From the NCBI GenBank assembly GCA_021297895.1, contig JAJTHN010000046.1:1-36411 (forward strand): DNA of 36,411 nt. The letters run 5' to 3'. Origin of the DNA: Phycisphaeraceae bacterium. GTDB taxonomy: Bacteria > Planctomycetota > Phycisphaerae > Phycisphaerales > UBA1924. How positions within the stretch are numbered: the first letter of the stretch is position 1; every line of letters begins with the position of its first letter. The notes under the pieces are model-generated. The model did no database searches. It worked only from the letters and a program-made list of their open reading frames with translations, and was not told the origin of the DNA. This document shows positions 5,990 through 16,290 of this stretch, in pieces. A program made the translations under genes and the position numbers.

Positions 5990-7783
5990 ATGCCGAAGAC
6001 CGCCACAAAGCCCGAGCCCGCCGCCGCCGCACTGCCGCCGAGCATCCCTTACGCCGGCGGATACCGCACCGCCGAGCCCGCGTCGATCGCGATCGCCGAC
6101 ATCATCGTCGATGAGATGAAGAACGACCGCGACGCCAGGTCGTACGACACGCCGCAGGGAGCGACGGCGCTGAATGAACTGGCCGAGACCATGCACCGCC
6201 TGGGCCAGCTTCAGCCCGTCGGGGTTCGCCGCCTGCCCGACGACAAGCGCAAGACCCAGGGCGGAGCACTCGCCTCATACGAGCTCGTCTTCGGGTTCCG
6301 CCGCATGCGGGCCGCGAACATGCTGAAGTGGACGCACATCAACGCCGTCGTCGTGCCGGCGGACGTTTCGGACGCGGACGCGAGGCTCACCGAGAACCTC
6401 CACCGCGAGGCGCTGAGCGACATAGAGAAAGCAGACGCGGTATGCGAGCTCTACGACAGAAACCCCGACCTGGTCCCCGACGATGAGCGGGTCGCCGCGA
6501 TCGCCGCCAGGCTCGGCCAGAGCGAGCGCTGGGTCCGAGACCACCTGTACATCGCGCGGATGAGCAAGCCGATCCGCGAGCTGATCCGCTCGGGCCAATT
6601 GCCGGCGACGCACGCCCGGGTGATCGCCAGGCTCGCCGATGCGAAGGTTCGCGAGGACATCGCTCGCCAGGCCGCGGCCGAGGAGCCCGGACGCCTGCCG
6701 ATGGAGCTCGACCAGGTCAAGGACCTGGTGACGCGCCGCATGCTCAGCCTCGCCGACGTCGCCTGGGACAAGGCCGTGAACGTGCCCGGGGTTCAAGCCC
6801 CCGCGTGCAACACCTGCCCGGCCAACAGCGCCAACGACATGCAGCTGTTCGGAGGCAAGGGCGAACTGCCAGCCGCCGGCGACCTGTACGACAAGATGGA
6901 CGGCGGGACAGGCAGGCGCTCGAAGGACGACGACGGGCCGTACTGCGGGAACCCGACGTGCTACAAGGCGAAAGCCGCCGCGGCGGAGAAGGCCCTGAAG
7001 ACCGCGGCGACGGCGATCGTCAACGCGGTCGAGAAGACCGAGGCCCCGCTGAACATCAAGATGCTGCAGGAGAGCCGTCTAGTCCCCGCGGGCGTCAGCG
7101 CCGAGGCCGCACTCTCCGCCGCCAGGATCCGACGCGCCGAAAAGAGCGTCAAGGCCGCAGAACGTTCGGCCGATCGCTCGGAGACGAACTACCTGCCCGA
7201 GTACGAGGTCAACTACCGCGTCAATGACGCGATCAGGAATGCGAACCACGAGCGCGTCGAGCAGTACATGCCGTACGTCGAGGCCGCTCTGACGGCACGG
7301 CCGGAGGTCGCGACCGCGATGACGGTGATGCTCTTCGAGAGCAGCTTCTCCGACACCTTGCTGGCGAAGAAGCCCAAGTACAACAGGTACGCACCCCTGA
7401 GCCAAGCCCACTGGCAGCAACGCCTCCGGCTGATCGCGGAGCCGGACATCGGCGAGCTGGGCAAAATCGCGATGAAGGCCAAGTCGACGACCTCCAGCCC
7501 GGAGAGCATCGTGGAGGCGATCGCAGAACTGCTCGCCGACACAGACAACGCTTTCGACAAGCGCGACGCCCTCCGCAAGGCCCTGAACATCGCCGCGCCG
7601 CTCCCGCCGGCGGTGGACGAGAAGGTCATCCGCCAGGCCACGCTCCAGAAGCTGATCGACTCCAAGAAGATCGCCAGGCCGAAGGGCTGGGTGGATGCCC
7701 CCACCGCCGCCGAGCCCGCACAGGCTCCCGCCGCCAAGGCCGCCAAGCCCGCGAAGCCGGTGAAGGGCAAGGTGCGCAAGTGA
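5990..7783 (+). CDS. ParB/Spo0J-family protein with a zinc-type Cys cluster
   Basis: ParB proteins bind DNA sites and act as CTP-dependent clamps in partition or as transcription factors. The N-terminal ParB domain (about 30-160) has the box-II-like GFRRMRAA at 102-109 and the box-III-like ENLHRE at 135-140. A KorB-type HTH follows at about 165-230 (AARLGQSERWVRDHLYIAR, then GQLPATHAR). Residues 273-324 hold four cysteines (C273, C276, C319, C324) in a likely zinc site that ordinary chromosomal ParB lacks. A long helical region and a Lys/Ala/Pro tail complete the 597 residues, about twice the usual length. No ParA is visible, so classical partition is doubtful. A role in phage transcription or replication, as for many phage ParB-like proteins, is more likely. 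AGGAG precedes the ATG. The domain call is firm; the role is inferred. Confidence 0.85.
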   Translation: MPKTATKPEPAAAALPPSIPYAGGYRTAEPASIAIADIIVDEMKNDRDARSYDTPQGATALNELAETMHRLGQLQPVGVRRLPDDKRKTQGGALASYELVFGFRRMRAANMLKWTHINAVVVPADVSDADARLTENLHREALSDIEKADAVCELYDRNPDLVPDDERVAAIAARLGQSERWVRDHLYIARMSKPIRELIRSGQLPATHARVIARLADAKVREDIARQAAAEEPGRLPMELDQVKDLVTRRMLSLADVAWDKAVNVPGVQAPACNTCPANSANDMQLFGGKGELPAAGDLYDKMDGGTGRRSKDDDGPYCGNPTCYKAKAAAAEKALKTAATAIVNAVEKTEAPLNIKMLQESRLVPAGVSAEAALSAARIRRAEKSVKAAERSADRSETNYLPEYEVNYRVNDAIRNANHERVEQYMPYVEAALTARPEVATAMTVMLFESSFSDTLLAKKPKYNRYAPLSQAHWQQRLRLIAEPDIGELGKIAMKAKSTTSSPESIVEAIAELLADTDNAFDKRDALRKALNIAAPLPPAVDEKVIRQATLQKLIDSKKIARPKGWVDAPTAAEPAQAPAAKAAKPAKPVKGKVRK

Positions 7784-11418: not shown

Positions 11419-11735
11419 CCGCCGACCAGGGCAAACAGAGCCGGCTCCGCGCCCGTGACCTGCGGATGCAGGCCGATCGGCTCACTCGCCAGGCCCGCGT
11501 CGTCGGCCGGTTCCTCGACTTGACGCAGACCGAGCTCGCACAGACCAAGGCCGCCGGCGCTCTCGCCCAGGGCACGCTCGCGATCGCCGCCGCGGCCGAG
11601 CGACTCTGCGACCGCCTCCAGCAGCAGCAGGCCATCGACATGCATGCCTTGGCAGACCTTCAGCGACTCGTGATCGAACACCGAGCGGCCCTCGCCGAGG
11701 ACCGCGCCGTCCGCAACACAGGAGCATCAGCGTGA
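11415..11735 (+). CDS. Small helical hypothetical protein
   Basis: The 106-residue product is almost entirely helical, rich in Ala, Arg, Gln and Leu, with likely coiled coils at about 10-50 and 55-95. No enzyme motif or membrane segment is visible. It precedes the J-domain gene and overlaps it by four bases. Function unknown; it might be a scaffold or cofactor in the replication operon. Confidence 0.55.
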   Translation: MTADQGKQSRLRARDLRMQADRLTRQARVVGRFLDLTQTELAQTKAAGALAQGTLAIAAAAERLCDRLQQQQAIDMHALADLQRLVIEHRAALAEDRAVRNTGASA

Positions 11736-12376
11736 GACGCACACAGCAGCCGCCAATCAGGACGGAGCTCATCGCACGGGCCTGGGCCGAGCCGATCAAG
11801 GGCCAGGGCAAGAAGAGCCCCTACCGAGCCGGGTGGACGTCGATCGCGGCCATGCTTCGCCACGAGCTCGCGGCGCTCGAGGTCCGCCAGGCGATCGTCG
11901 AGATGAACGTCGCCGAGAACGACATCCGTAACGACGGCTGGATCCGCTCCACCGCCAGGCCGCGATCGCCGGGCGTGCGCCTGTTCTTCGATTCGAAGTA
12001 CGGCCCGCTCCGCTACGAGTGCGCGACGTGGGCAGACTGGGAGCACAACGTCTTTGCGATCGCCCGGACGCTCCGCGCCCAACGGATGATCGCCCGCGAC
12101 GGCGCAGTGAAGGGTGACCAGGTGTACGCCGGCTGGAAGGCCCTGCCCTCGACGCCGGCGACGCCAGCGGCCGAGTTCGCCAGCGTGCGCGACGCCATGA
12201 GATGGCTGAGCAGCATCGGCAAGGGCGACATCGTCAGCGAGCTCCCGACGGATCTGCAGGCGGTCTATCGCGCCGCCGCCAGGAAGGCACACCCCGACGC
12301 CGGCGGGAGCGATGAGCTCATGGCCAAGGTCAACCGGGCACGGGACTTCGTCGAGCGGGTGGGAGGTGCAGCGTGA
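11732..12376 (+). CDS. J-domain-containing phage protein
   Basis: The 214-residue protein ends in a J-domain-like segment (about 170-212): the helix LQAVYRAAARKA, the invariant HPD motif at 187-189, the GGSDELMAKVN loop-helix and a final helix. J domains stimulate the ATPase of Hsp70 (DnaK). The N-terminal 165 residues are not recognised and may be the substrate-binding part. The GTG start overlaps the previous stop. It stands two genes upstream of a DnaA-like gene and three upstream of the origin-bearing gene. In lambda, host DnaJ, DnaK and GrpE remodel the O-P-DnaB complex at the origin. A phage-borne J protein here could recruit DnaK for that step, which is inference. The HPD motif itself is plain. 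Confidence 0.75.
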   Translation: MRRTQQPPIRTELIARAWAEPIKGQGKKSPYRAGWTSIAAMLRHELAALEVRQAIVEMNVAENDIRNDGWIRSTARPRSPGVRLFFDSKYGPLRYECATWADWEHNVFAIARTLRAQRMIARDGAVKGDQVYAGWKALPSTPATPAAEFASVRDAMRWLSSIGKGDIVSELPTDLQAVYRAAARKAHPDAGGSDELMAKVNRARDFVERVGGAA

Positions 12377-12756
12377 GCGAGACCACACCCAACCCCAACG
12401 CAGGCCGCATCGTCAACTGCGATCGCTGCGCCGTCAGGTGCCGGATCGCCGCGACGTCGAACGACCAGGCCCGGCTCCTCAAGCACGCGAAGGACCGAGG
12501 CTTCTGCCCGAACTGCGCCATCACCGCCTGGCTCCGCCGCTTCATCGAGAGCCCGCACATGAAGGCCGCGCTCGCGTGCAATCCCAGCGGCGAAAAGCCG
12601 CCGGAGTGCTTCAGGCTCCCTCACCTGCAGGAGCAGATCGGCAGGGTGCTCGCCGCAGGCCAGGCGGACCTGCCAGCCGAGGCGCTCGACTGGGATGAGA
12701 TCATCGCGAACTGGGACCTGCCATTCCCCGGACAGATCGAGCCGCTCTTCCCATGA
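12373..12756 (+). CDS. Zinc-finger-like hypothetical protein
   Basis: The 127-residue protein has a probable treble-clef or ribbon site: CDRCAVRC near residues 16-23 and CPNC near 45-48. The helix AWLRRFIESPHMK follows. The rest (85-127) is acidic and Trp-rich. The start GTG overlaps the J-domain stop. It is probably a DNA- or protein-binding accessory factor of the replication operon; the exact family is not recognised. Confidence 0.6.
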   Translation: MSETTPNPNAGRIVNCDRCAVRCRIAATSNDQARLLKHAKDRGFCPNCAITAWLRRFIESPHMKAALACNPSGEKPPECFRLPHLQEQIGRVLAAGQADLPAEALDWDEIIANWDLPFPGQIEPLFP

Positions 12757-13103
12757 ACTTACCGCCCCCCATCCTCGACGACCTGATCGAGCCCGCCGCC
12801 AGGGCGCTCGGCGTGCCCGTCGATCTGCTCCTTGACGACAGCCGAGGCGCAGCGACGATCGAGGCCCGCCGGGTCATCGTGCTCCTGGCCCGCCAGTACA
12901 TCGGAGCGTCGTACCCCGAAATCCGCCGGCGGCTGCGCCCACGCTCAGCAGGACACACCAGCGTCCTGGAGATGCACACCGCCGCCCGGGAGCTCATGAG
13001 AGACCCCGACTTCGCACGCCGCGTCGAAATCGCCGAGCAGGCCTTCTGGGCCGCCTGGCAGGCTCGCGCCATCCGCTACACCACCGCCAGGAGAGCCTCG
13101 TGA
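12753..13103 (+). CDS. DnaA domain-IV-like DNA-binding protein
   Basis: The 116-residue protein resembles the C-terminal DNA-binding domain of DnaA without the AAA+ part. It has VDLLLDDSRGAATIEARRVIVLLAR (about 23-47), then YPEIRRRL (54-61), then AGHTSVLEMHTAARELM (66-82), where GHTSV replaces the DnaA signature DHTTV. This domain reads DnaA boxes in double-stranded DNA. It lies directly before the gene holding the candidate origin, so it may bind there or compete with host DnaA. No ATP-binding motif is present. The start overlaps the preceding stop. The similarity is motif-based and fairly strong; the target is inferred. Confidence 0.75.
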   Translation: MNLPPPILDDLIEPAARALGVPVDLLLDDSRGAATIEARRVIVLLARQYIGASYPEIRRRLRPRSAGHTSVLEMHTAARELMRDPDFARRVEIAEQAFWAAWQARAIRYTTARRAS

Positions 13104-14020
13104 ACCGCTCAGCCCTTATCACAACCCTCGCCGAACTCCTCGCCGACGTGCTCGACGAGGCACAGAAGCTGCGCCGCGAGCGCCGGCGAGCCCGCGGCGA
13201 CGCCCAGGCGAGCCCGGAGCCGAGCCAGGCCTCCGAGCAGCCCGCGCCGCCGCCGGCGGCTGTGGGCCGATCGTCAGCCCCCCAGACCGACTCGGACGCA
13301 CGCCGGCGAGCCCTCGCCGCCGAGCGAGCCCGACGGTACCGAGCGAGCCTTCGGGCCATCGCAGACCCTAACAGATCGGCCGCGAGCGCGCGTGACGCGT
13401 CACGCTCAAGCGTGACGCAGCGTGACGGTCAGCGTGACGGCAGCGTGACGGAGCGTGACGCACTCGCGCGCGGTTTTGGTTCTTCTTCCGGTCTCTTTCC
13501 TGCTGAAGAGGCTGATAAATACCAAGACAATACACAAAAACCCGCGCGTGACGCACAGCGTGACGCGTCACGCTCCGTCACGCTGCAGCGTGACGCCAAT
13601 CCGTTAGGGTCCAGCCGGTCGGAGGCCGCGGCGAAGGCGAACGCGACCAGAGCCGCCAAGGCGCTCGAGGCACTGCCAGCCGAGCTCCGCGAGCCCGACC
13701 TGCCCGAGGCCGTCCGCCGGGCCTGGGCACGTTGGCTCGACCAGCGGGCGAGGGCTGGATGGCGGAACCCGGCGACGGCAGACAAGATCGCCGCGGCGCT
13801 CGAGGCGGTCCGAACCGAGATGTCCGCAGGGGGCGAGGCCGCGGCCGTGCGAGCGATCGACGCGGCCTGGGCCTCGGGCTGGCAGATGGTCTTCGCCAGG
13901 CGAGCGCCGGAACGCCAGGCACCGCAGAGGCTCAGCGTGAAGGACGCGACGAACTGGGCGGCATGGCGAGCCGCGAATGGCGAAGAGGCAACCACCACGA
14001 CCATGAGGAGCACAGCATGA
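13100..14020 (+). CDS. Replication initiator-like protein containing the origin
   Basis: The 306-residue protein probably plays the role of lambda O. Residues 1-95 are helical and Arg/Ala-rich. Residues 96-170 are a low-complexity stretch of repeated (Q/E)RD and RDA units, produced by the iteron DNA. Residues 175-275 are the conserved part: LPEAVRRAWARWLDQRARAG, a helical middle, then GWQMVF. This resembles the W-W-R and GWQGLF ending of many phage replication proteins found next to DnaC-like loaders. The GTG start overlaps the DnaA-like gene and the stop overlaps the loader ATG. Codon and base use change sharply in the 70-base AT-richer segment inside the gene. The role in initiation is inferred from the origin, the position and the C-terminal motif. 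No N-terminal HTH is obvious to me. Confidence 0.65.
   Translation: MNRSALITTLAELLADVLDEAQKLRRERRRARGDAQASPEPSQASEQPAPPPAAVGRSSAPQTDSDARRRALAAERARRYRASLRAIADPNRSAASARDASRSSVTQRDGQRDGSVTERDALARGFGSSSGLFPAEEADKYQDNTQKPARDAQRDASRSVTLQRDANPLGSSRSEAAAKANATRAAKALEALPAELREPDLPEAVRRAWARWLDQRARAGWRNPATADKIAAALEAVRTEMSAGGEAAAVRAIDAAWASGWQMVFARRAPERQAPQRLSVKDATNWAAWRAANGEEATTTTMRSTA
13390..13460 (+). repeat. Left iteron cluster of the candidate phage origin
   Basis: Seven copies of GCGTGACG: 13390-13397, 13398-13405 (inverted, forming a perfect 16-bp palindrome with the first), 13410-13417, 13420-13427, 13432-13439, 13443-13450 and 13453-13460. The five direct copies start 10, 12, 11 and 10 bases apart, close to one helical turn, so a protein bound to each would sit on the same face of the DNA. 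Confidence 0.85.
13471..13540 (+). other. AT-richer candidate DNA-unwinding element
   Basis: These 70 bases contain 29 G or C (41%), far below the surrounding sequence; 13511-13540 is only 30% GC. It starts pyrimidine-rich (TTCTTCTTCC) and becomes A-rich (GATAAATACC, ACAAAAA). It lies between the two iteron clusters and inside a coding frame, as expected for the melting region of a theta-type origin. Confidence 0.65.
13546..13595 (+). repeat. Right iteron cluster of the candidate phage origin
   Basis: Five further copies of the same 8-mer: 13546-13553 and 13558-13565 direct, 13566-13573 inverted (a second perfect 16-bp palindrome with its neighbour), 13576-13583 inverted, and 13588-13595 direct. 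It mirrors the left cluster on the other side of the AT-richer segment. Confidence 0.85.
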
Positions 14021-14691
14021 GGCAGATGACCGCGGAGCAGGCGAACCGAGCGCGGGAGGCGAGAGCAGCGAAGGACCAGATCGACCGCCAGACCGCACAG
14101 AGCCTCGCCGCGCAACGAGTCGAGAGCAAGCGCCAGTATGCCTGCATCAGCCCGAGACACAAAGCGGTCCTTGAAGGAGGGCTGAAGTGGCCTGACCAGG
14201 GCGCACTTGCGCGAGCCGTTCTCAAGGCTGCTCTGGCGGGCCGATGCGTCGTCCTTCTCGGCGAGCGGGGCATTGGCAAGACCCAGCTGCTGACCCAGGT
14301 CGCCTGGGAGGCCTGCGCCGAGCCTTCCCTGTCGATGGTGCGGATGTGGGAAGGCGCAGAGATCATCGAGCACATCAGCACCAAGGCCTTCGGCGAGCGA
14401 ACGCCGCGAGCCACGGTGATTGACCAGCTGTGCAAGATGCAGTCGCTGATGCTGATCGACGACCTCCACCGCCGCCGGCACACGCCGGAGGAGATGCTCA
14501 TCCTCGGCGAGCTGCTGAACGCGCGGTACCAGATGAAGGCAGGCACGATCATCGCCGCGAACTACACGCCAGATGCCTTGGTCGAGTCGCTCGGCGCGGA
14601 CGTGATGAGCCGCATCGGGGAATGGGGCGAGGTCTTCGTCATGGCCCGTTGGGAGAGCAGACGCCCGCAGGTGAAGATCAACCTGGTCTAA
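14017..14691 (+). CDS. DnaC-like helicase loader ATPase
   Basis: The 224-residue protein is an AAA+ ATPase of the DnaC/IstB type, which would load the host replicative helicase at the phage origin. Walker A is GERGIGKT (82-89). Walker B is LMLIDD (144-149). Sensor 1 lies in TIIAANYTP, and an arginine is placed at MSRI (Arg199) as a candidate finger. The N-terminal 45 residues are helical and charged, the usual helicase-contact region. Unlike typical DnaC it lacks a long N-terminal domain. It follows the origin-bearing gene with a 4-base overlap, the O-P-like order of lambdoid phages. It is the last gene of the long coupled operon. Confidence 0.85.
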   Translation: MRQMTAEQANRAREARAAKDQIDRQTAQSLAAQRVESKRQYACISPRHKAVLEGGLKWPDQGALARAVLKAALAGRCVVLLGERGIGKTQLLTQVAWEACAEPSLSMVRMWEGAEIIEHISTKAFGERTPRATVIDQLCKMQSLMLIDDLHRRRHTPEEMLILGELLNARYQMKAGTIIAANYTPDALVESLGADVMSRIGEWGEVFVMARWESRRPQVKINLV

Positions 14692-14883
14692 ACAACGGAA
14701 CGCCGCGGTGCTCCGAGGAAGAACCGGGTGCGGATTATTCACTTTGGTATTCAGACGGAGCCCAAGACGCCCCCCACCCCCCCCGGGTTTGGGTCCTTCT
14801 AGGGGTAAGTGTGGACGTTTGCAGCCTCCGGAACTGCCGCCTTCCAAGGTAGTCTTTCTTTCCTTGGGAAGTTCGGAGAGCGG
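14692..14883 (+). other. Intergenic gap with C-tracts and possible hairpin
   Basis: This gap ends the replication operon. It has lower GC in its flanks and a striking pyrimidine tract: six C (14770-14775), A, eight C (14777-14784), then GGG, TTT, GGG. CCCAA (14761-14765) can pair with TTGGG (14789-14793) across the tract, followed by TCCTTCT, so it may act as a terminator or attenuator. The minus strand is G-rich enough to form a G-quadruplex in principle. No gene or good promoter is seen. Confidence 0.45.
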
Positions 14884-16290
14884 GTGGAGCAGATCCAACG
14901 GTGGCCGGTCGCAAAAGTGCGGCCTTTTCAGCGGAATCCTCGCGACAACGAGGGGGCGGTTGACGCGTGCGCGGCCTCGATCGCCGCGTTCGGGTTCCGA
15001 TTCCCGATCCTCGTCGACGCCGAGGGCGTGATCATCGCCGGGCACACGCGGCTCAAGGCTGCGCTGAAGCTCGGGCTGGCCGACGTGCCGGTGATCGTCG
15101 CCGCGGACCTGACGCCGGACCAGGTCCGAGCGCTGCGCATCGCCGACAACAAGGTCGGCGAGCTCGCCGAGTGGAACGAGGACCTCCTCCGCGGCGAGCT
15201 GGAGGCGATCGGAGCCGCGATCGACATGACGCTCCTCGGCTTCACGCGCGGCGACATCGACCGCATCCTGGCCGGCGGGTACCAGGAGCGGGGCGTTGAC
15301 CCTGACGACGTGCCGGCCGTGCCCGCGGTCGCGACGACGAAGCGCGGCCAGCTGATCAAGCTTGGTCGCCACCTCCTGCTGTGCGGAGACTCGGCGAGCA
15401 CCGAGGATGTCGACCGGCTCGTCGCCCGATCGCCGATCCATCTCGTTCACACCGACCCGCCGTACAACGTAGCGGTCCAGCCGCGGAGCAAGCCGAAGGC
15501 CAAGGGCGAGAAGAAGACGGAGCGCGCCCGCGATCGCGTGATCATGAACGACGACCACAGCCCCGCCGAGTACGAGCGGCTCGTGCTCGCCTGGTTCGGA
15601 CAGATGGCTCGAGTGCTCGTGCCGGGCGGCGCGGTCTACGCCTGGGGCGGGTACGTCTCGCCCGAGCCCTACTCGCTGGCGTTCCGGAGGAACAACCTGC
15701 ACCTGGCCCAGGCGATCATCTGGATCAAGGAGCACCCGACGCTCAGCCGGCGAGATTTCATGGGCAACCACGAGTGGTGCTTCTACGGCTGGAGAGCGGG
15801 TGCGGCGCATCGGTTCTTCGGGCAAGCCAACGTTTCAGACACCTGGGAGATTCGCCGCGGAGGAAGGGCGCCGCGCGGGGTCAAGCTCGGCCAGGGCGTG
15901 AGGATCAAGGCCGGCGACGCCAGCGTCGACGTGCTGCCGGCGAGCTCCGGACGCAAGGGGCTCGCGGAGGTCGAGCTCGGCGACGATCAGGCCGCGATCG
16001 TCCACGCCGACGCGCCGAGCGACGTGTGGCGAGTGAAGAAGGTCAGCCCGCAGGCGATGGTCCACCTCACGGAGAAGCCCGTCGAGCTGGCCCGCCGGGC
16101 GATTGAGTACAGCACGCTCCCGGGCGAGAACGTCCTCGACCTCTTCGGCGGGAGCGGGATGACGCTTATCGCCGCGGAGATGACCGGACGCCGCGCGTTC
16201 CTGATGGAGCTCGACCCACTGTACTGCGACGTGATCATCGCCCGATGGGAGGCCTTCGCGGGAAAGGCCGCGGAGCGGATCGATGGATGA
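14884..16290 (+). CDS. ParB-like / DNA adenine methyltransferase fusion
   Basis: The 468-residue enzyme joins an N-terminal ParB/sulfiredoxin-type domain (about 8-115) to an N6-adenine or N4-cytosine methyltransferase. The ParB part includes GVIIAGHTRLKAALKLG and IADNKVGELAEW. The methyltransferase has motif IV DPPY at 191-194 and the S-adenosylmethionine motif FGGSG at 421-425. Motif IV precedes motif I, the beta-class order, with the target-recognition region between. That region carries an extra stretch of about 60 residues (starting KLGQGVRIKAGDASV). The GTG at 14884 has GGAGAG before it; the frame is open further upstream in the C-tract gap but without a ribosome site. Such phage enzymes usually protect phage DNA from host restriction or mark origins. 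No partner nuclease is visible, so it is probably an orphan methylase. Confidence 0.85.
   Translation: MEQIQRWPVAKVRPFQRNPRDNEGAVDACAASIAAFGFRFPILVDAEGVIIAGHTRLKAALKLGLADVPVIVAADLTPDQVRALRIADNKVGELAEWNEDLLRGELEAIGAAIDMTLLGFTRGDIDRILAGGYQERGVDPDDVPAVPAVATTKRGQLIKLGRHLLLCGDSASTEDVDRLVARSPIHLVHTDPPYNVAVQPRSKPKAKGEKKTERARDRVIMNDDHSPAEYERLVLAWFGQMARVLVPGGAVYAWGGYVSPEPYSLAFRRNNLHLAQAIIWIKEHPTLSRRDFMGNHEWCFYGWRAGAAHRFFGQANVSDTWEIRRGGRAPRGVKLGQGVRIKAGDASVDVLPASSGRKGLAEVELGDDQAAIVHADAPSDVWRVKKVSPQAMVHLTEKPVELARRAIEYSTLPGENVLDLFGGSGMTLIAAEMTGRRAFLMELDPLYCDVIIARWEAFAGKAAERIDG

Follow-up and report, generated by a model that had tools for sequence, protein, structure and literature searches.

The repeat array at 13390-13595 of the window (the whole analysed stretch of 36,411 nucleotides, which is contig C27 of the host draft assembly; 3.48 Mb, 84 contigs) is very probably where a temperate phage begins its replication, at an origin of the lambda type whose iterons lie inside the coding sequence of a predicted initiator. 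The wider result of the sequence comparisons is that one word, present in the window as GCGTGACG, recurs in many predicted phage initiator genes and is recoverable from a protein motif. The less expected part is the putative reader itself, a basic motif, AERARxYRxR, in a protein with no recognised winged helix, together with the return of GTGAC/TGACG by scans made with the motif only. Origins are mostly unmapped in phages known from metagenomes only. If arrays of GCGTGACG mark origins, sequence data would suffice to locate these in many unrelated phages; the protein motif would provide a short, testable candidate reader of the DNA word. The coordinates of the features are collected in Table 1.

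Table 1. Features of the candidate origin and its neighbouring genes (positions in the window)
Feature	Position	Strand
DnaA-domain-IV-like helix-turn-helix protein, 116 aa, no ATPase domain	12753..13103	+
Candidate initiator gene, 306 aa, GTG start, GTGA overlap with the preceding gene	13100..14020	+
Segment coding for the basic motif ALAAERARRYRASLRA, directly 5' of the iterons	13310..13357	+
Bracketing inverted pair, left arm GACCCTAAC	13364..13372	+
Left iteron cluster, 7 GCGTGACG copies (6 direct, 1 inverted)	13390..13460	+
16-bp palindrome GCGTGACGCGTCACGC, left	13390..13405	.
AT-rich segment, 41% GC, candidate unwinding element, left part pyrimidine-rich on the + strand	13471..13540	.
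Right iteron cluster, 5 GCGTGACG copies (3 direct, 2 inverted)	13546..13595	+
16-bp palindrome GCGTGACGCGTCACGC, right	13558..13573	.
Bracketing inverted pair, right arm (GTTAGGGTC on the + strand)	13603..13611	-
Segment coding for the C-terminal domain, with weak similarity to phrog_18589 and to C-terminal parts of initiator-like proteins	13646..13972	+
DnaC-like helicase loader (AAA+ / IstB type), ATGA overlap with the initiator gene	14017..14691	+

The earlier note had reported twelve copies of GCGTGACG, nine direct and three inverted, within 206 bp, and their exact positions were reproduced. The copies start at 13390, 13398 (-), 13410, 13420, 13432, 13443 and 13453 in the left cluster and at 13546, 13558, 13566 (-), 13576 (-) and 13588 in the right cluster. 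The whole window contains 14 copies, 12 of them in the array, against a mean of 4.5 and a largest value of 8 in whole-window shuffles. The proposed spacing of the left-cluster direct copies near one helical turn was found from 13410 onwards (10, 12, 11 and 10 bp) and not for the first step, from 13390 to 13410, which measures 20 bp. Each cluster does contain the perfect 16-bp palindrome assigned to it. Two further features, absent from the earlier note, are an A preceding 10 of the 12 copies (AGCGTGACG) and a 9-bp inverted pair, GACCCTAAC/GTTAGGGTC, that flanks the array on both sides and could provide sites for a second protein. The CCCTAAC core of this pair has no other occurrence in the window on either strand. 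The note had suggested counting the 8-mer genome-wide; in the 3.48-Mb host assembly, 13 pairs of copies in the same orientation and 0-20 bp apart were found, seven of them in the array and the remaining six spread over five other contigs. The sole other spot with two pairs, on contig C41, is a 21-bp tandem repeat at the contig end (positions 2443-2507 of L301, assembly G000) that contains GCGTGACG.

The 70-base segment of 41% GC between the two clusters, also described previously, proved to be the lowest-GC 70-mer of the window (start at 13471; next-lowest 46%, window average 67%). Duplex stability over 60 bp has its minimum in the window for the segment beginning at 13480, with -77.4 kcal/mol versus a mean of -97.5 (sd 4.3). 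By sequence composition and by predicted duplex stability, the iterons adjoin an AT-rich region of the kind found at lambda-type origins. Cumulative GC skew was without a clear switch at the array locus and was dropped as an origin test for this reason.

Synonymous resampling of the gene with the protein fixed and the codon usage of the window gave a mean of 0.85 copies of GCGTGACG and a maximum of 6 in 5,000 draws, which argues that the repeat is kept at the DNA level; permutation of the gene's own codons gave a mean of 1.29 and likewise a maximum of 6. There are 15 positions at which the protein sequence is compatible with the 8-mer, and 12 of them carry it; two of the 15 overlap with occupied positions. 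The gene would have to serve protein coding and a dense set of predicted binding sites at once. Direct copies read RD or VT and inverted copies SR or VT, the third reading phase of a direct copy being a stop (TGA). Copies occur in two codon phases per orientation, as helically phased intragenic repeats such as those of a lambda-type origin.

A search of viral contigs for three GCGTGACG copies at 1-8 bp gaps returned 59 stretches; a single control word, the 8-mer with its letters in reverse order, returned 7. This phage accounts for two of the 59, and for one of the 47 distinct arrays left after removal of identical ones. In a hand count that used the longest covering ORF, 32 of the 47 had copies in more than one orientation/phase class (among them L075, a 16-bp satellite) and 15 in a single class, eight of these with a 15-nt period. 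Pentapeptide-repeat-like ORFs, as in L023, L030, L074 and L077, yield the same 8-mer in one frame with a 15-nt period and constitute a false-positive class. These counts bear on the reading in which selection acts on the RD/VT peptides and produces the DNA repeat as a side effect. Such repeats do exist, since eight of the 47 distinct viral arrays are single-frame repeats with a 15-nt period and the chromosomal matches are mostly protein or satellite repeats. In the window, however, the copies stand in different reading phases, with a spacing that is not a multiple of three, and 0.85 copies are expected from the peptide alone, while the 32 mixed-class arrays include this phage, and we give a protein-level origin of the repeat almost no weight. 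Among the chromosomal matches listed, 118 loci were read by eye; most were ordinary protein, low-complexity or satellite repeats, and L102, L164 (Myxococcus) and L191 (Hyphomonadaceae draft genome) were initiator-like, with L165 ambiguous. The chromosome-wide pattern scan was dropped as proof of function, as most of the 118 loci were low-complexity repeats.

The idea of an origin inside a coding gene, put forward in the earlier note, is favoured by this comparison: GCGTGACG arrays recur in phage genes, and 19 of 30 repeat-bearing ORFs matched replication-initiation, primosomal, replisome organizer, DnaD-like or O-like PHROGs (E 1e-3). The 30 ORFs, scanned singly, comprised 29 viral ones (the array of L064 is shared with L027) and one from Myxococcus; named replication matches numbered 7, 8 and 4 in the three batches of ten, and 11 ORFs were without such a match. 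Another 88 ORFs were scanned, namely two window genes and 86 neighbours, taken from up to two positions on each side of 27 loci (one of 87, from L069, was left out). Five of the 88 ORFs matched DnaB-type helicases and two matched DnaC-like loader families, which the loader of the window itself matches; SSB, RecT and RusA were also represented, among the best 25 of 67 and the best 25 of 112 families.

The layout was compared in 25 other loci, 24 viral ones and L191, which were hand-picked as initiator-like; L191 was chosen without a PHROG scan. This set includes L021, L031, L032, L044, L045 and L071 despite the lack of a PHROG match and L029 despite its cut by a contig end, and it leaves out L024 (matched, cut by a contig end) and the unmatched L060, L061, L067 and L068. 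The 70 nt located 3' of the main array were GC-poorer than the gene (mean -0.078, p 3.5e-4, n=25), with no such depletion on the 5' side of the array in the same loci (p 0.94). In 20 of the 25 loci, the 60-mer with the lowest GC in the gene lay at most 80 nt from a copy (expected 11.7, p ~0.0006). The AT-rich DNA is positioned between two clusters in the window and, on average, 3' of the main cluster elsewhere. Same-orientation steps of up to 40 nt between GTGACG cores in the other loci measured 10-12 in 90 of 154 cases and 20-24 in 21 cases, 13 of them at 21; because the search required a pitch of 9-16 for three copies, the 10-12 peak is partly built in, and the information in these steps is limited to where the peak falls inside 9-16 and to the group at 21 bp. 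Initiator-like genes found via protein similarity often had short repeats of a different sequence in the corresponding linker, less pronounced than the array of the window. As judged by eye, these were GTCCGC in epsilon15 and SPN1S (close relatives), ATGCTTG in ctTUS972, GTAACGC in SAC, GGATGTTC in L294, ACGTAAC in L295 and ACGGGA in L297, and the repeats of phi297 lie in one frame; in Shipwreck, Zucker, L230, L296 and L298 no convincing linker repeats were seen. The analysis covered eight of 77 matched phage records. The occurrence of own linker repeats per initiator agrees with the portion of PMC8022706 that deals with lambda, P22 and L, in which each initiator's iterons lie inside its gene.

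The array-bearing gene had been placed between a DnaA-domain-IV-like gene and a DnaC-like loader gene, and both neighbours were matched by domain searches. The product of the upstream gene matched Bac_DnaA_C with an E-value of 4.8e-7, but with 30.1 bits versus a Pfam cut-off of 31.5, and matched DnaA sequences of the PDB with an E-value of 2.7e-4. In a Foldseek search with its AlphaFold single-sequence model (pLDDT 71.5 for the best model, 44-54 for the other four), the eight best matches were all DnaA (best E 0.014). Pfam, PDB sequences and Foldseek concur that this product is a DnaA domain IV; its HTSVL stretch corresponds to HTTVL of E. coli DnaA. The AAA+ domain of DnaA is absent from the 116-aa product, which consists of domain IV only. 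We counted four one-mismatch DnaA boxes in the window (2.8 expected) and none in the array, so that the locus contains no box cluster of the oriC type; GCGTGACG does not fit the DnaA-box consensus. On the other side, the product of 14017-14691 matched phrog_50 (E 1.5e-13), which puts a loader gene alongside the array, as in lambda-type origins. None of the 86 neighbour ORFs of the other iteron loci resembles the DnaA-IV-like protein (best E 0.35), and this neighbour is therefore a part of the layout that is unique so far. The window may add a split design, in which a separate DnaA domain IV protein is encoded beside an initiator without a winged helix.

No recognised DNA-binding domain or winged helix was found in the protein encoded by the array-bearing gene. 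Its residues 1-182 gave no Pfam or PHROG match at E 0.1, and this search found no N-terminal DNA-binding domain of the O type. The C-terminal part weakly matched phrog_18589 (E 0.0012), a family found in 5 of 294 genomes of the phylum of the host and not in the host. In L055, the N-terminal part matches initiator PHROGs, and the C-terminus matches the O-like phrog_678 as well as phrog_18589. When the 345 window ORFs were searched with a profile built from six C-termini of this kind, the window gene ranked highest (E 0.0098, with 0.2 for the runner-up), and the C-terminal comparison with hhalign gave 62.8%. The basic motif was scored with a matrix built from 18 other loci, the window being left out: the window protein scored 24.7, versus 12.0 for the next of the 345 window ORFs. 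The background consisted of 4,573 ORFs at loci that had been retrieved with the chromosomal iteron pattern and with the control word; L191, itself an iteron gene, was the only one to reach 24.7. The motif segments were hand-picked and one of the 18, L071, was misplaced (leave-one-out score -13.3); with a matrix lacking L071, the window protein scored 25.0. The weak match of the C-terminal domain and the clear match of the basic motif suggest, at the level of sequence, that the window gene is linked to the initiator class. Closer relatives were sought in several collections. The window protein had no match in phage records at 1e-5 and only identical copies in IMG/VR. A search of 101 genomes, from the host and related bacteria, gave a single further match, in G044 (E 6e-4), to a contig-end ORF without an array. 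Searches with the loader and with phrog_2509 in the phylum of the host returned distant loaders or other initiators only.

Viral contigs were then searched for the protein motif alone, with CGN arginine codons and with the DNA word forming no part of the search. The motif AERARxYRxR was found in 50 stretches, 43 of them distinct, of which 39 were analysed (L051 and three short ones were left out); CGTGA, GTGAC and TGACG were the top three enriched of 512 5-mers, in 6 of the 39 loci each, with 3 for the next. For AER[ST]RxYRxR (41 stretches, 35 distinct, 23 analysed), GTGAC was enriched in 7 loci and TGACG in 5, again with 3 for the next, and for a scrambled motif (11 stretches, 10 analysed) CGTGA, GTGAC and TGACG were enriched in none of the 10. 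The protein motif therefore retrieved, in two sets, a DNA word that was not used in the search. The codon-shuffle control of this enrichment also breaks peptide repeats, so the control alone does not separate selection on DNA from selection on protein. The pairing is loose in both directions: most motif carriers are without GTGAC repeats, and L025, L041 and L055 have the repeats and lack the motif. Most of the 43 distinct AERARxYRxR matches were unlike initiators by eye, and the motif was rejected as a sufficient marker. Eight AERARxYRxR ORFs were GTGAC-enriched, among them L051 (already known), L254 and L268. Protein similarity yielded 14 initiator-like homologues that lack the motif (scores -0.4 to 13.4; L296 was left out); among them, only phi297 was GTGAC-enriched (p 0.003), and it contains no GTGACG. 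The motif is neither necessary nor sufficient for the repeats and is found in unrelated ORFs too. In the motif-found loci L244, L249, L254, L264, L268, L272 and L283, GTGAC or CGTGA repeats directly follow the motif; by eye, L244 and L249 are initiator-like and the other five are not, L254 and L268 resembling membrane proteins.

Motif and word could occur together in part because the genes derive from a single initiator lineage. The motif carriers without an evident N-terminal domain, namely the window, L031, L032, L070, L264 and L306 (the last two as judged by eye), suggest a role of the motif itself. As a tentative proposal, which we hold to be possible and would not yet favour, AER[AST]RxYRxR may be a portable reader of CGTGACG, with reader and sites kept in one phage gene; in the window it would replace the winged helix, giving a split initiator that acts with a separate DnaA-domain-IV protein on a two-sided array. 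The motif may resemble the basic region of bZIP proteins, which read TGAC half-sites. A literature search reaching few subscription journals found no account of the motif or of the GCGTGACG repeat and, by title, none of GTGACG as a phage-origin iteron.

At an origin of the lambda type, the gene product would bind the iterons, probably via its basic AERARRYRASLR segment, or the DnaA-IV-like protein would do so, or both. The bound protein would bend or wrap both clusters and melt the segment at about 13470-13540, after which the loader would put the replicative helicase on the opened strands. If the origin is transcribed within an early operon, transcription could aid the opening, as described for lambda. 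Binding of the repeats by the gene product or the DnaA-IV-like protein might instead control the replication operon, with the origin located elsewhere. The sites do lie within the gene cluster that they would control, and some motif ORFs unlike initiators carry GTGAC or CGTGA repeats (L254, L264, L268, L272, L283), but the sites are 0.3-0.5 kb inside the gene, no sigma-70 promoter was matched at 11600-15000, the DNA enclosed by the array is the least stable in the window, and the carriers elsewhere are largely replication genes. We consider such an autoregulatory operator in place of an origin very unlikely, and an operator role is compatible with an origin role.

The repeats could also act through their secondary structure, if the clusters formed a cruciform, a single-stranded hairpin or an mRNA stem that served as a priming site or a translation brake. 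As single-stranded DNA, the strand at 13360-13615 folds into a large interrupted dyad at -86 kcal/mol, versus -54 for shuffles (z -8.6). The two 9-bp arms around the array contribute to this fold, as does a perfect inverted match of 22 bp from one cluster to the other, and L032 is similar (z -9.5). Against this, z ranged from +0.9 to -9.5 across 19 other loci, with +0.9, +0.3 and -1.8 for three single-orientation arrays, and an Rfam search gave no match. Because of this range, a hairpin is not a common feature of the arrays; it was rejected as a conserved one, and we regard the structural explanation as extremely improbable.

Since the window also encodes a phage integrase (837-1886), an AAA_24 protein, a ParB-family protein, a terminase and a capsid protein, it represents a temperate phage or prophage. 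The ParB-family protein (5990-7780, 597 aa) has a ParB_N and an HTH_ParB domain and occurs in this phage together with the integrase, and the ORF at 14809-16290 is a DNA methyltransferase fused to a ParB N-terminal domain (ParB_N). With these proteins present, the palindromes and repeats might form a partition site (centromere) that is bound by the ParB-family protein and not by the initiator, and the two 16-bp palindromes in the array would fit such a site. This assignment appears very unlikely: the integrase lessens the need for a partition role, the end of the parB-like gene is 5.6 kb from the array, and no site within 3 mismatches of the parS consensus was found. The same repeat occurs elsewhere in genes of the initiator or primosomal type, and an AT-rich flank, not expected of a centromere, counts against a partition site as well.

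An intragenic origin with phage-specific repeats, as preferred here, belongs to a class already known from lambda O and from gene 18 of P22 and L. In lambda, the loader is P, the gene of which lies directly downstream of O. The parallel with lambda drawn in the earlier note stands for the intragenic iterons, the adjoining AT-rich DNA and the downstream loader gene; it does not extend to the O-like N-terminal domain, which was not found, or to the repeats, of 8-10 bp versus 19 bp. Lambda has four repeats of ~19-20 bp that bind O dimers, whereas the window has twelve of 8-10 bp in two clusters flanking the AT-rich DNA, and the window, unlike lambda, encodes a DnaA-IV-like protein directly before the initiator gene, has a DnaC-like loader and gave no O-like N-terminal domain. 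The placement of iterons near the middle of the initiator gene, next to AT-rich DNA, is the same in both, as far as the relevant parts of PMC5043065 and PMC8022706 describe it. The former part places the lambda origin within O, with 19-bp repeats and a neighbouring 40-bp A+T-rich region that opens, and with activation by transcription; the latter reports intragenic origins with phage-specific iterons per initiator in lambda, P22 and phage L, the last with six imprecise 11-bp repeats. P22 and L gene 18 resemble the window in their intragenic phage-specific repeats, which in the same part of PMC8022706 lie in an O-like initiator gene. Unlike the window, P22 and L have a different repeat and, as a partner, a DnaB-type helicase (gp12). 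The iterons of plasmids are usually longer and located outside the rep gene. No Rep-type protein was found among the window proteins scanned, unlike in iteron plasmids. Plasmids of the RepA/RepE/pi type share with the window mostly direct helix-phased repeats adjoining AT-rich DNA, according to PMC5043065. Like bacterial oriC with DnaA, the window has a DnaA domain-IV-like protein, encoded beside the array; unlike oriC, it has no DnaA-box cluster at the locus, and its DnaA-like protein has no ATPase domain.

One IMG/VR record is 100% identical to the window over 699-36411, and a second one is identical over the parts compared. The IMG/VR record G101 (79,354 bp; L292, L293, L299, L300) consists of window 699-36411 and a second half, which encodes another terminase and a Toprim/DUF7146 primase. 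It has 44-bp identical ends and a 1.2-kb repeat at 97%, and it is two phages joined, in nature or by assembly.
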